Positions 24,303 to 31,781 of a stretch of DNA of 48,309 nt are shown here, one piece after another. The notes beneath the pieces were generated by a model. The model saw only the letters and a list, made by a program, of their open reading frames with translations, did no database searches and was not told the origin of the DNA. Numbering within the stretch: position 1 is the stretch's first letter; every line of letters begins with the position of its first letter. The stretch is taken from NCBI GenBank assembly GCA_021796545.1, contig JAKABX010000004.1, positions 1 through 48,309 on the forward strand, given 5' to 3'. The position numbers and the translations under genes were made by a program. The DNA is from Actinomycetes bacterium (GTDB lineage: Bacteria; Actinomycetota; Acidimicrobiia; Acidimicrobiales; Bog-793).

Positions 24303-24755
24303 TCACGCGCGCCCGAGGAGGGCTGCGACCGCGTCGAGCGCGAGCAGGTAGCCGAGGCCGCCGAAGCCCGCGACGGTCCCGTCCGCGACCGGCGCCACGA
24401 CGCTCGTCTGGCGCCAGGGCTCACGCGCGGCGGGGTTGGAGAGGTGGAGTTCGACGACCGGCCCGGCGAAGGTCGCGAGCGCGTCGTGCAGCGCCCAGCC
24501 GTAGTGGGTGAGCGCACCGGCGTTGACCACGAGGGCCGCCGCACGGCCGCGCGCGCCGTGGACGGCCGCGACGAGGGCGGCCTCAGCGTCGGCCTGGAGG
24601 TGCTCGAGCGCCAACCCGTGCGCCGCGGCCCGCTCGCTCGCCCGACGGACATGGTCCTCCAGGCGCTCGGTGCCGTACACCTTCGGGTCCCGGTCGCCGA
24701 GCAGCTGGAGGTTCGGCCCCGACAGCAGGAGGACGACGGGCGGTCGTGCGCTCAT
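24303..24755 (-). CDS. aroQ: 3-dehydroquinate dehydratase, type II
   Basis: VLLLSGPNLQLLGDRDPKVYGTERLEDH...VVNAGALTHYGWALHDALATF...VELHLSNPAAREPWRQTSVVAPVADGTVAGFGGLGYLLAL. Confidence 0.93.
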   Translation of the reverse strand: MSARPPVVLLLSGPNLQLLGDRDPKVYGTERLEDHVRRASERAAAHGLALEHLQADAEAALVAAVHGARGRAAALVVNAGALTHYGWALHDALATFAGPVVELHLSNPAAREPWRQTSVVAPVADGTVAGFGGLGYLLALDAVAALLGRA

Positions 24756-26314
24756 GGGGCCTCCTTGCGCCAGGTCGCGAGGACCTCGGAGACGACCGCG
24801 GGATCCACGCCCGCGACGGGCTCGACGCCACGGGGGCCGTCCAGCACGAAGGTCAGGCCGGCCGTCGCCTTCTTGTCCCGCGCCATCGCCGCGACGAGCG
24901 CGTCGTCCTCGGCGGCGGCCGGCAGGGTGTCGGGCAGGCCGTAGCCGCGGACGACCTCGAGGTGGCGCGCGACGCGCTCGGGCCCGATGCGCCCGAGGCG
25001 CTCGGCGAGGCGGGCCGCGAAGACGAGGCCGATCGCGACCGCCTCCCCGTGGCGCAGGTCGAGCGCGCCGGGGTCGCCCTCGTCACCGGCGAGGCCGACG
25101 GCCTCGAGCGCGTGGGCGAGGGTGTGGCCGTAGTTGAGGCGGGCACGCGCGCCAGCCTCGCGCTCGTCCGCCGCGACGACGGCGGCCTTGGCGGCGACGC
25201 AGCGCGCGACCTGCTCGACGAGCGGGAGGTCGTCGAGATCCTCCACCCCCAAGAACGCGTACTTCGCCATCTCCCCGAGGCCGGAGCGCCACTCCCGCCC
25301 GGGGAGGCTCAAGAGGACATCGGTGTCGCAGAGCACGGCGCTCGGCTGCCAGAACGCTCCGACGAGGTTCTTTCCCTCGGGCAGGTTGATCCCGGTCTTG
25401 CCGCCGATGGCCGCGTCCACCTGCGCGAGCAGCGTCGTCGCCACGTGCACGACCCGAACGCCGCGGTGGTAGGTGGCCGCGGCGAAGCCGGCGACGTCGC
25501 TGACCATTCCGCCTCCGAGCGCGACGACGACGTCCGCGCGGGTGAGCCCTGCGGCGACGAAGCGTCGCCACAGCGCCTCGAGGGTCGCGACCGACTTCGC
25601 CCGCTCGCCGCGACCGATCTCAAGGCGCGTCGTCTCGAGCCCGGTCTCGACCGCGACGGGGATCCCCTCCTGGGTCACGAGGCAGCAGCGCCGGGCGCCC
25701 CGGGGCAGGACCTCGGCAAGGAGGCGGGCCGCGCCCGGACCGACGACCACGTCGTAGCCGCGCCCGGCGAGCCCGACGCGCACCCGGCGCTGGAGCGCCC
25801 CCACCGCGCGGAGCGCCGCCTGGTCGGCGCTCAGGCCGTCGACGTCGACGACGACGGTCGCCACCGCCGCATAGAGGGGGGCCCGCTCGGCGTCGAGGCG
25901 GGCGAGCGCCCCGGCGGGGTCGCCGGCGAGAAGCGGGCGGTCGCCCGCCGCCCCGAGGCGCGCGGCGAGGGTGTCGGTGTCGGCCCGGAGCCAGACGACG
26001 TCGCTCCCCTCGAAAAGTGCCCGGTTCGCCGGCGCGAGGACGGCACCGCCACCGGCCGCGACGACGCGGGGCGGCGAGGCCCCGAGCGCGTCGGCGAGGG
26101 CGTCGTGCTCCGCGGCGCGAAAGGCCTCCTCGCCGTGCCGGCGGAACAGCTCGGCGACGCTCATCCCCGACGTGCGCTCGACGGTCTCGTCGGTATCGAC
26201 GAAGCCCCGGCCGATCAGGGCCGCGAGCGCGCGCCCGGTGGAGGTCTTGCCGGCACCGGGCATGCCGACGAGCACGACGTGGCGCGGCGCGGGCCGTCCC
26301 GCCGGGCCGCTCAC
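24752..26314 (-). CDS. aroKB: Fused shikimate kinase / 3-dehydroquinate synthase
   Basis: N-term [35 protein letters not shown] (AroK P-loop); C-term [72 protein letters not shown] (AroB); one uninterrupted 520-aa ORF. Confidence 0.95.
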
Positions 26315-27548: not shown

Positions 27549-28196
27549 CTACTTCTTCGAGGCCTGGTAGTAGGGGTTGGAGCCCTGGGCGTGCGCGGTG
27601 ACGTCCACGATGCGGGAGATCTCGGGCACGGCCTCCTGGATCGCGACGGCGATGCCCTGGCTGAGGGTGACCTGCGCGAGTCCGCAGCCCTGGCACCCGC
27701 CCGACAGCATGACGTAGGCGACGGCCTCCTCGTCGATCCCGACCAGGTCTGCCCGCCCACCGTGGCGGGCGATCTGCGGGTTGACCTCGCTCTCGAGGAT
27801 CTCGAGCACGCGCGCCGCGAGCGGCCCCTCCAGCGAGCCGAAGCTGCCGGGCTCGGGCGCGCCCGGTGCGGTCGGCGGCGTGTTCGGGTTGAGGATGAGG
27901 AGGCCGTCGTCGCCCACGTCCAGCGTCGCCCCACCCATCTTCTCCGCCGTCCCCGCCGGGAAGACGACGGGGAGGCCACCGTGACGTTCCACGTGGTCAC
28001 GGGGCCCCGCGTCGGCCGCGGCCTCGAACCAGATGTCGTAGGTGTAGGCCCCGTTCTCGGCGCCGGAGACCTCGACGAAGAGCCCGAGGCCGTCGGGCGC
28101 CTGCTCGCCGGCGCGGGCCTCGAGGACGAGCTCGAGGGCTTCCTCGGTGATGTTGAGCAGCGCGGACCCAGGGGTGGGTGGTTCGGGGAGGTTCAC
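27549..28196 (-). CDS. Nfu/NifU-like Fe-S cluster biogenesis protein (A-type-like N-terminus plus NifU domain)
   Basis: [32 protein letters not shown]... then [64 protein letters not shown] (CxxC motif). Confidence 0.9.
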
Positions 28197-28262: not shown

Positions 28263-29537
28263 ATGATGGACGAGATGCCCCGGGTGCTGCTCGTCCTGCC
28301 GACCGCCACCTACCGCGCCGACGCCTTCCTTGCCGCCGCGCGCCGTCTCGGCGTCGAGGTGACGACCGCGTCGGACCAGGCGCAGGTGCTCGCGGACGTG
28401 ATGGGCGACCGCTTCGTGCGCGTGCCCCTCGAGGATCCCGACGCCGGTGCCGCGGCGATCGCGGCCCTGGACGGGCGCCGCGCCCTCGACGCCGTGGTCG
28501 CCGTCGACGACCAGGGCCTCCTCACCGCCGCGGCGGCCGCCGCGCGTCTCGGCCTCGCACACAACCCGCCCGACGCGCTCCGCGCCACGCGGGACAAGGC
28601 CGAGATGCGCACCCGTCTCGCCGCCGCCGAAGTCCCCCAGCCGGAGTTCACGGTCTGCACGGCCGACGACGGCGACGCGCTCGTTGCGGCGGTCGAGCGG
28701 GCCGCCCGGCGCCGGGGTGGCCCGGTCGTCGTCAAGCCCACGGGGCTGTCGGCAAGCCGGGGTGTGATCCGCGCCGACGCCCCCGACGGCGCGGGGCGGG
28801 CGGCACGGCGCATCGCAGCCCTGCTCGCCGGGATCGGCGAGCCGCTGCGCGTCGTCGTCGAGCGCTACGTCCCCGGCGACGAGGTCGCGCTCGAGGGCCT
28901 GCTCAGTGACGGGGTGCTCTCGACCCTCGCGGTCTTCGACAAGCCCGACCCCCTGGTCGGCCCCTTCTTCGAGGAGACGATCTACACGACGCCCTCGCTC
29001 CAGGCGCGCCCGGTGCTCGACGCCCTCGAGATCGCGGTCGCCCAGGCCGTTGCGGCGCTCGGGCTGCGCCACGGGCCCCTGCACGCCGAAGCGCGTCTCG
29101 AGAGGACGCCCGCCGGGGTCGTCCCGAGGATCCTCGAGGTCGCCGCGCGCACGATCGGCGGGCGGTGCGCCGCCGCGCTCAGCTTCGCCACGGGGACGAC
29201 CCTCGAGGAGGTCGTGCTCGCCCACGCGCTCGGGCGCGGCACGGACCTCCGGCCGTCGCCGGGGGCGAGCGGGGTGATGATGATCCCGATCCCGGCGACC
29301 GGTCGCCTCGTCGGCGTGGAGGGGCGCGAGCGCGCCGGAAAGGTCCCCCTCATCACGGGCCTCGAGATCACGGTCCCGCCGGGCGGCCGGGTCGTCGCGC
29401 TCCCCGAGGGGGACCGTTACCTCGGCTTCCTCTTCGCCCGTGGGCAGAGCCCCGGCGCCGTCGCCGACGCGCTGCGCGCGGCCCACGGGGAGCTCGAGAT
29501 CCACATCGACCCCGACCCTGGGCAGGGTGCACCGTGA
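28263..29537 (+). CDS. ATP-grasp domain protein (carboxylate-amine ligase type)
   Basis: MPRVLLVLPTATYRADAFLAAARRLGVEV...RATRDKAEMRTRLAAAEVPQPEF...GGPVVVKPTGLSASRGVIRAD...VVVERYVPGDEVALEGLLSDG...LHAEARLERTPAGVVPRILEVAARTIGG. Confidence 0.9.
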   Translation: MMDEMPRVLLVLPTATYRADAFLAAARRLGVEVTTASDQAQVLADVMGDRFVRVPLEDPDAGAAAIAALDGRRALDAVVAVDDQGLLTAAAAAARLGLAHNPPDALRATRDKAEMRTRLAAAEVPQPEFTVCTADDGDALVAAVERAARRRGGPVVVKPTGLSASRGVIRADAPDGAGRAARRIAALLAGIGEPLRVVVERYVPGDEVALEGLLSDGVLSTLAVFDKPDPLVGPFFEETIYTTPSLQARPVLDALEIAVAQAVAALGLRHGPLHAEARLERTPAGVVPRILEVAARTIGGRCAAALSFATGTTLEEVVLAHALGRGTDLRPSPGASGVMMIPIPATGRLVGVEGRERAGKVPLITGLEITVPPGGRVVALPEGDRYLGFLFARGQSPGAVADALRAAHGELEIHIDPDPGQGAP

Positions 29538-31003
29538 GCCGGATCCTCCTCTTGTCGACCTACGAGCTCGGCGCGCGCCCGCTCGGCTGCACGGTCCCCG
29601 CGGCCGCCCTCGCTGCCGACGGTCACGAGGTCCGTGCGCTCGACCTCTCCCTCGGGACTCTCGAGCCCCGCGCTCTCGAGGAGTCCGACGGCGTCGTGGT
29701 CTCGGTCCCGATGCACACCGCGTGGCGGCTCACCATGGGCGTCCTCGCGCAGATCCGCGGGTCGCGTCCCGACGTCCCGGTCTTCGTCCACGGTCTGTAC
29801 GCCGTGGCGACCGCCGACGCGGCCGGAGTGCTGCTCGGCCCCCGCGACGTCGTCGCGGCCGGCGAGGTGGGCCCGGCGCTGCGGCAGTGGGCGGCGGGGC
29901 TCGGCGAGGACCCCGGGGCCTCCCCGGCGGGTGGCCCCTCCCGCCTCGTGAGCCTCGGCCCGGCCCGGCGCGGTCCCCGGCCGCCCCAGCGGCGCGCCGG
30001 GCTCGCGGGGCTCGACGCGTACGCGCACCTGGTGCGCGGCGCAGAGGAGCGCCTCGTCGGCACGCTCGAGACCTCGACGGGCTGCAACCACACCTGCAGG
30101 CACTGCCCGGTTCCCGTCGTCTACGCGGGGCGCTCGCGCGCCGTCGCGCTCGAGACGACCCTCGCCGAGGCGGACGCGCTGATCGCCGAGGGTGCGCGTC
30201 ATCTCCACCTCGCCGACCCCGACTTCCTCAACCGCCCGACCCACGCGCGCGCGTTCGCCCGCGCGCTGCACGGCGCCCATCCCGAGGTGAGCTTCGACGC
30301 GACCGTGAAGGTGAGCCATTTGCTCCGCCACGCCGATCTTCTCGGGGAGCTCGCGCGCTGTGGACTCGTGCTCGTCACGACCGCCCTCGAGTCGACGAGC
30401 GGCACCGTCCTCGCACGCCTGCACAAGGGGCACACCGCCGCCGAGATGCGCGTCGCCCTCGAGCTGCTGCGTGCCCGGCGGATCGAGCCCCGCCCGTCGT
30501 TCCTCCCCTTCACCCCCTGGACAACGCGCAGGGACGTCACCGACCTGTTCGACTTCGTCGCCGAGGAGGACCTCGTCCACAACCTCGACGCGGTGCAGTA
30601 CGCGATCCGCCTGCTGCTGCCCCCGGGGTCGCTGCTGCTGGCCGACCCCGACCCGGTCCTCGCCGCCAGCCTCGCCGGCGAGGACCGCGCCAACGGCGGC
30701 ACCGCGTGGCGGGCGGCCGACCCGGCGCTCGACGCCTGCCAGGAGGCGCTCGCCGCCTGCGCCGAGCAGCTCGCGGACGCTGACGCCCGGGTCGCCTACG
30801 ACGCGCTCCGGGCCGTCGCGCACGAGCGCCTCGGTCTTGCCGACCAGGGGGCACCCCGGCCCCGTGCGAGCGGAGCGCCGCCGGGTCCCGAGCGCCCCCG
30901 GCTCAGCGAAGCCTGGTTCTGCTGTGCCGAGCCGACACGCGCCCAGCTCGCGGGCGTCGGGCGGGGACGCGGGTGCGAGGCCGGCGGGGCGGGCGTTGGC
31001 TAG
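29534..31003 (+). CDS. Radical SAM protein with C-terminal CCAEP motif (CUAEP/CCAEP-tail type)
   Basis: B12-binding-like N-terminus; TSTGCNHTCRHCPVPVVYAG (CxxxCxxC); LVTTALESTSGTVLARLHKGHTAAEM; tail SEAWFCCAEPTRAQLAG. Confidence 0.9.
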   Translation: MSRILLLSTYELGARPLGCTVPAAALAADGHEVRALDLSLGTLEPRALEESDGVVVSVPMHTAWRLTMGVLAQIRGSRPDVPVFVHGLYAVATADAAGVLLGPRDVVAAGEVGPALRQWAAGLGEDPGASPAGGPSRLVSLGPARRGPRPPQRRAGLAGLDAYAHLVRGAEERLVGTLETSTGCNHTCRHCPVPVVYAGRSRAVALETTLAEADALIAEGARHLHLADPDFLNRPTHARAFARALHGAHPEVSFDATVKVSHLLRHADLLGELARCGLVLVTTALESTSGTVLARLHKGHTAAEMRVALELLRARRIEPRPSFLPFTPWTTRRDVTDLFDFVAEEDLVHNLDAVQYAIRLLLPPGSLLLADPDPVLAASLAGEDRANGGTAWRAADPALDACQEALAACAEQLADADARVAYDALRAVAHERLGLADQGAPRPRASGAPPGPERPRLSEAWFCCAEPTRAQLAGVGRGRGCEAGGAGVG

Positions 31004-31781
31004 GACCCCCGAGGCCGGGGAGTGGGCGAGCTTCACCGACCCCGACGAGGACCGCACCTGGCTCGTCGACGTCGGCTTCCTGGCGAGCCCCTGGCACTGC
31101 ATCTACGGTGCGGGCTGCCAGGGCGTGCTGACCGCGCCCGCGCCCGAGCAGGCCGAGGGCTGCTGCAGCTACGGCGCCCACTTCACCGGCGCGCAGGACG
31201 AGGAGCGCGTGCGCCGCGCCGCCGCGACGCTGAGCGACGCCCAGTGGCAATTCCGCGGCCGCGCGGCCGCGCGCGGAGCGTTCGCGGGACGCGGCGGCGC
31301 CCGGACGACGCGCCTCGTCGAGAGCGCCTGCATCTTCCTCAACCGTCCGGGCTTTCCCGGCGGGCCAGGGTGCGCGCTGCACCGTGGCGCGCTCGAGGGC
31401 GGCGTCGCGCCGATGGCGTACAAGCCGGACGTCTGCTGGCAGCTGCCGCTGCGGCGTGAGGACTTCACCGATGCCCGGGGGCACGTCACCTCCGTGCTCG
31501 GCTCCTGGGAGCGCCGGCACTGGGGCCCCGGCGGCGAGGAGTTCGCCTGGTGGTGCACCGAGGACCCCGCCGCGTTCAGCGGCGCCGCACCGGTGTGGCG
31601 CGCGCTCGCGCCGGAACTGCGCGCGATGACGAGCCCCGCCCTCTACGACGCCATCGCCGCCTACTTAGACGAGCGCGCCGCCGTCCTGCTCCCCCACCCG
31701 ACGCTGCGCCGGCACGCGGCTCAGAGCGGGGAGGAGTCCTCGCGCTCCTGCTCGTCTTCCTCGAGCTCGTCCGCCTCGTAG
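30996..31781 (+). CDS. Cys-rich conserved hypothetical protein, possible metal binding
   Basis: WHCIYGAGCQGVLTAPAPEQAEGCCSYGAHF...ESACIFLNRPGFPGGPGCALHRGALEGG...YKPDVCWQLPLRREDF; TTG start overlapping the radical SAM stop (start uncertain). Confidence 0.75.
   Translation: MARTPEAGEWASFTDPDEDRTWLVDVGFLASPWHCIYGAGCQGVLTAPAPEQAEGCCSYGAHFTGAQDEERVRRAAATLSDAQWQFRGRAAARGAFAGRGGARTTRLVESACIFLNRPGFPGGPGCALHRGALEGGVAPMAYKPDVCWQLPLRREDFTDARGHVTSVLGSWERRHWGPGGEEFAWWCTEDPAAFSGAAPVWRALAPELRAMTSPALYDAIAAYLDERAAVLLPHPTLRRHAAQSGEESSRSCSSSSSSSAS

Follow-up and report, generated by a model that had tools for sequence, protein, structure and literature searches.

A widely conserved gene pair of an ATP-grasp ligase and a CCAEP-tailed radical SAM protein related to ArsL in an Acidimicrobiia genome

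The radical SAM enzyme ArsL transfers a 3-amino-3-carboxypropyl (ACP) group to As(III) (PMC8552651), a reaction also described in a 2024 JACS study as cited in PMC12159101. The enzymes named as acting through an ACP radical are Dph2 and ArsL (PMC8552651). Among the ATP-grasp ligases, BL00235 makes Met-Gly, and its residue P85 sets its specificity (PMC6920838). Here we describe a locus that combines a relative of ArsL with a predicted ligase of the BL00235 type. It lies in a 48,309-nt stretch of contig JAKABX010000004.1 ("the window") from an Actinomycetes bacterium, the genome assembly of which is 1.78 Mb long and 68% complete. The nearest named relatives of this genome are metagenome-assembled genomes (MAGs) of Actinomycetes/Acidimicrobiia.

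The features of the locus are collected in Table 1. The ATP-grasp and radical SAM ORFs overlap in the sequence GTGA at 29534-29537, and the radical SAM and Cys-rich ORFs overlap in TTGGCTAG at 30996-31003. Direct reading of the DNA confirmed the three ORFs, both overlaps, the CxxxCxxC motif and the CCAEP tail, all of which had been described in an earlier sequence-only reading. The order of ATP-grasp, radical SAM and Cys-rich genes is kept in about 20 relatives, with sequence identities of about 40-70% (lower for a few of the ligases). The three ORFs are thus genuine genes and not chance ORFs of this 75% G+C DNA. Searches of the window for tRNAs and for Rfam families gave no match. A shikimate kinase fused to a 3-dehydroquinate synthase (PF01202 and PF01761) is encoded on the minus strand at 24752-26314.

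Table 1. Position and description of the features of the locus in the window.
Feature	Position	Strand	Start, length	Description
Nfu-type Fe-S carrier gene	27549-28196	-		Degenerate N-terminal domain and NifU C-terminal domain with CxxC
ATP-grasp ORF	28263-29537	+	424 aa	Predicted L-amino-acid ligase type, BL00235-like, with LAL_C2 domain
Radical SAM ORF	29534-31003	+	GTG start, 489 aa	CCAEP-tail; sister family of ArsL
CxxxCxxC, [4Fe-4S] cluster motif	30083-30106	+		Within GCNHTCRHCP; Cys conserved in relatives and in ArsL
WFCCAEPT tail of the radical SAM protein	30914-30937	+		Second Cys is TGT at 30923-30925
Cys-rich ORF	30996-31781	+	TTG start, 261 aa	Remote DUF3109-like; judged a neighbour, not a member of the unit

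The radical SAM protein matches PF04055 (E-value = 1.4e-12) and possesses both the CxxxCxxC motif and the radical SAM barrel. The three cysteines of the motif are invariant in 28 relatives and are also found in ArsL. Against the family NF040546 the protein exhibits a full-length match (profile positions 1-467) of 441.2 bits (E-value = 4e-132), which falls below the curated cut-off of 500 bits. This cut-off is passed by just 8 of the 32 positive relatives, so that the model seems to have been tuned on other lineages. The second-best family is ArsL (NF040542) with 183.5 bits, everything else scoring 38 bits or less. Similarly, a Thermomicrobium homologue scores 315 bits against ArsL and at most 58 bits against the families that follow. 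A tree of 118 proteins splits the NF040546 family from ArsL with a support of 100 and places the window protein among the family rows, together with members scoring above the cut-off. Apart from its score, the window protein differs from the NF040546 description in having Cys, not Sec, in the tail. The family with CUAEP or CCAEP ends that the sequence-only reading had named is thus the right one: by its full-length match, its tail and its nested position, the window protein belongs with NF040546, a named family without assigned function. A literature search for the CUAEP/CCAEP motif, in which the selenoprotein literature was incompletely covered, found no match. The AF2 model of the protein (pLDDT 91) matches the folds of AprD4, TsrM, MgmA, OxsB and MiaB. 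Since no ArsL structure is among these matches, the fold search cannot separate ACP from 5'-deoxyadenosyl chemistry.

The C-terminal tail is variable in one respect. The tail could be read in 124 proteins, and 30 of these exhibit an in-frame TGA at its second position (C-TGA-AEP). They come from at least seven phyla (Planctomycetota, Gemmatimonadota, Rokubacteria, Acidobacteriota, Nitrospinota, Chloroflexota and Actinomycetota), and the well-supported branches of the 118-protein tree force at least five changes between Sec and Cys. Where Sec and Cys replace each other at a conserved position, the thiol or selenol is usually catalytic or binds a metal. The repeated interchange within NF040546 points to a chemical role of the tail residue. 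In a joint alignment with ArsL, the CC/CU of the tail aligns with the CC of the RCCLKC end of ArsL and is among the 51 positions conserved across both families. On a plasmid of Thermomicrobium roseum (L163:7935-9371), the annotated radical SAM coding sequence (WP_012643191.1) ends at WFC, directly before the stop. The stop codon is TGA and the frame continues with AEP behind it, so that a selenocysteine codon seems to have been taken for the end of the annotated protein.

ArsL and the window family are sister families with common catalytic-domain residues and a common C-terminal CC, and in several ArsL loci an ATP-grasp gene is found nearby. They differ in the tail, RCCLKC in ArsL and WFC[CU]AEPT in the window family, the latter lacking the third tail Cys of ArsL. 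They also differ in the partners: the ATP-grasp of the ArsL loci belongs to a different subfamily, whereas the window family has an Nfu partner instead. Membership of the window protein in ArsL itself was rejected, given its WFCCAEPT tail in place of RCCLKC, a score far from the more than 450 bits needed, and the lack of arsM, arsQ or arsR genes recurring among 111 neighbouring ORFs. The ArsL loci with an ATP-grasp ligase gene of the other subfamily are located on plasmids of Alicyclobacillus, Priestia and Pantoea. ATP-grasp genes at L164:2433-3665, L166:2656-3879 and L167:7458-8774 stand beside plasmid-borne ArsL-type radical SAM genes with the RCCLKC tail. The best NCBIfam match of these plasmid ATP-grasps is PRK02186, followed by PRK07206, DdaF and BacD. 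Their position beside ArsL-type genes suggests peptide forms of arsinothricin-like compounds. By analogy, such plasmid loci can be regarded as an independent parallel to the ligase/radical SAM unit of the window.

The ATP-grasp protein matches PF13535 (ATP-grasp_4, E-value = 3.3e-18) and PF18603 (LAL_C2, E-value = 9.8e-13), both over the gathering scores. Its family profile aligns with BL00235 (PDB: 3vot) over nearly the whole length (E-value = 9.5e-66) and with BacD (E-value = 5.9e-33). The ATP-grasp core, the LAL_C2 domain and an E-x-(A/G)-x-R signature are common to the window ligase and these two enzymes. The window ligase has the E-x-A-x-R form, also seen in BacD, at the place where ordinary ATP-grasps have E-x-N-x-R. 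These sequence features make the protein an L-amino-acid ligase of the BL00235 type, predicted to form peptide bonds. At the specificity site, BL00235 has F-E-P where the window ligase family has a conserved Asp-Asp and no Pro. As the residues differ at this site, the substrate of the window ligase probably differs from that of BL00235.

The ligase and the radical SAM gene are inherited together. Out of 59 close relatives, 30 have both genes, 26 have neither and 3 have a single one (1 / 2); the corresponding figures for 296 Actinomycetota genomes are 20 with both, 269 with neither, 1 with the radical SAM only and 6 with the ligase only. The p-values (Fisher p = 2e-13 and p = 8e-25, respectively) are uncorrected for phylogeny. 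Concerning the exceptions among the close relatives, the radical SAM fragment runs off the contig end in G014, and the gene is located at a contig edge in G008 (ligase) and G012 (radical SAM). The sole radical-SAM-only genome of the larger set likewise has its gene at a contig edge, and two of the six ligase-only genomes, in which the radical SAM was undetected, are near complete. The two genes are unlinked in several genomes of the Actinomycetota set (G140, G228, G279 and G235). Since the co-occurrence holds even there, the association is more than shared synteny. Across phyla, the ligase lies beside the radical SAM in 40 of 56 well-flanked loci, defined by at least 4 kb on either side of the unit. 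The ATP-grasp and radical SAM genes are one two-gene biosynthetic unit, widely conserved. Many bacteria of soil and groundwater carry the pair, which probably makes a small amino-acid-like metabolite. The partnership with the ATP-grasp gene, proposed from the letters of the window, thus holds in both sets of genomes, and the proposal of an uncharacterised small-molecule pathway was judged right for this unit.

A third partner had been missed in the sequence-only reading. A gene for an Nfu-type protein is oriented divergently from the ATP-grasp gene, 66 bp from its start. The protein matches PF01106 (E-value = 6.9e-19) and its CxxC is invariant. Like NfuA it possesses a C-terminal NifU domain with this motif; it differs by its degenerate N-terminal domain and scores 83.6 bits (E-value = 1.5e-23) against the NfuA equivalog, below the cut-off of 269. 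Of the 56 well-flanked loci, 40, spread over several phyla, have an Nfu-type gene next to the ligase/radical SAM pair. This gene is divergent in loci of Actinomycetota and Chloroflexota; the order is radical SAM-Nfu-ligase in Rokubacteria and radical SAM-Nfu-DUF169-ATP-grasp in a planctomycete. Because the association repeats in different gene arrangements, a functional role of the Nfu-type protein is supported. On the scale of whole genomes the Nfu profile is found in 51 of 60 relatives (p = 0.07 against the radical SAM); its presence is not diagnostic there because paralogues exist elsewhere. NfuA/Nfu proteins serve LipA and MiaB, and NFU1 has reportedly been linked with lipoyl synthase. The Nfu-type protein is a consistent third partner of the ligase/radical SAM unit. 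DUF169 (PF02596) genes are located inside the operon in 17 of the 56 well-flanked loci, in several phyla (L099:12137-12850, L100:4021-4743 and others); the window has none.

Because the CUAEP family and ArsL are related by descent, the former most likely carries out ArsL-related chemistry, its tail holding the acceptor. Our leading hypothesis, drawn from these homologies and judged about as likely as not, is that the radical SAM protein acts as an ACP transferase like ArsL and forms a 2-amino-4-X-butanoate, from which the ligase then makes a dipeptide. The radical SAM protein would cleave SAM non-canonically, as its sister ArsL does, to yield the 3-amino-3-carboxypropyl radical. This radical would attach to a soft atom or a nucleophile that the C-terminal Cys-Cys or Cys-Sec tail keeps in place; the product would be a 2-amino-4-X-butanoate, i.e. 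a methionine-shaped amino acid. The BL00235-type ligase could join this amino acid to a second one in an ATP-dependent reaction, leading to a dipeptide or a capped product. By analogy with the service of NfuA to LipA and MiaB, the divergent Nfu-type protein may supply or repair the [4Fe-4S] cluster of the radical SAM protein. Methionine is itself a 2-amino-4-X-butanoate, and a methionine-shaped product fits the partner ligase because the BL00235 type uses Met. That ArsL is by far the nearest other family was counted for the ACP reading. The points against it are the missing third tail Cys of ArsL, the absence of arsinothricin-specific partners, the scarcity of exporter-like or resistance-like genes among the immediate neighbours, and the six ligase-only Actinomycetota genomes.

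Other readings were weighed against this hypothesis. The radical SAM protein might use the ordinary 5'-deoxyadenosyl radical on a small molecule or a protein, with the ATP-grasp acting before or after it; this would cover C-H functionalisation, dehydration or methylthiolation as in AprD4 or MiaB. We consider it possible but rather unlikely: none of the best solved-fold matches is an ACP transferase, and Nfu proteins are known to serve enzymes such as LipA and MiaB, but by sequence the protein stands far closer to ArsL than to those fold families, and a domain search of the protein gave no match to the MiaB N-terminal domain. An organoarsenical pathway, in which As(III) would be the acceptor and hydroxyarsinothricin or its peptide the product, appears improbable. 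As(III) is the acceptor of the sister family ArsL, a dithiol or selenothiol tail would suit it, and an ATP-grasp gene is also found in the ArsL loci of three plasmids. However, no arsenic gene family recurs among 111 neighbouring ORFs. Arsinothricin-type ArsM methyltransferases are nearly absent, with weak matches in 2 of 60 relatives and none in the window genome as far as assembled (68% complete). ArsN1-like acetyltransferases are found in 52 of the 60 relatives regardless of the radical SAM, none passing the cut-off.

The sequence-only reading had also counted the Cys-rich protein into a three-gene cassette; in such a pathway it might act as a substrate, metal donor or partner. Its gene is adjacent to the radical SAM gene, on the same strand and overlapping it, and is adjacent in about 20 close relatives as well. 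Yet the Cys-rich family is present in 58 of 60 relatives and does not track the radical SAM (Fisher p = 0.22), including 26 of the 28 relatives in which no radical SAM was detected. In nine genomes the Cys-rich gene is divergent from an adjacent Nfu-type gene, and in five of these no radical SAM was detected. Across phyla, a DUF3109-like gene occurs in only 6 of the 56 well-flanked loci. Membership in the pathway is thus highly improbable; the neighbourhood conservation that had been proposed as a check holds for the ATP-grasp and radical SAM genes and fails for the third gene. The Cys-rich gene is one of Acidimicrobiia in general and adjoins the unit by coincidence. As the ligase/radical SAM pair sits between the Nfu-type and Cys-rich genes in the window, their adjacency is explained by insertion of the pair into, or its loss from, an older Nfu/DUF3109 neighbourhood. 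PF11307 (DUF3109) is matched by 9 of 22 relatives of the Cys-rich protein (best E-value = 5.6e-6) and not by the window protein, the AF2 model of which, of moderate confidence, gave no fold match in the PDB. At three loci (L169, L170 and L171, of G016, G056 and G004) an Nfu-type/DUF3109-like pair is divergent, with the radical SAM absent or elsewhere in the genome; in two cases a shikimate-kinase-like or aldo/keto-reductase-like ORF was seen by eye between the two genes.

The tie to ArsL and the almost perfectly co-inherited amino-acid ligase give NF040546, so far a family without function, a concrete testable reaction. As ACP-radical enzymes are very few, a second and widespread ArsL-type family would extend ACP-radical chemistry well beyond arsenic antibiotics. 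A bolder form of the ACP hypothesis, which we regard as distinctly doubtful, is that this Sec/Cys-tailed family adds ACP to a non-arsenic acceptor held by the tail (e.g. selenium, sulfur, phosphorus or a metal) and that the dedicated ligase makes a dipeptide from the product. If true, bacteria of soil and groundwater would widely produce a metabolite that has so far escaped notice.

Some minor observations concern other loci of the family. In Chloroflexota and Acidimicrobiia, 13 loci (L046, L048, L051, L052, L054, L059, L061, L065, L069, and L066, L082, L089, L103) have a gene for a single-chain pyruvate dehydrogenase E1 next to the radical SAM gene. In most of the Chloroflexota loci of this kind, genes for LipB, LipA and E2 are lined up there as well. 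Pyruvate dehydrogenase or lipoate as a target of the chemistry would be confined to these two lineages, and the arrangement may reflect a shared Fe-S supply or operon history. In a MAG labelled Bifidobacterium breve (L057), the radical SAM protein is almost the same as in G075, a member of the window's class, so that the label or binning of this MAG is probably wrong. A locus labelled Acidobacteriota (L058) is likewise placed inside an Acidimicrobiia clade.
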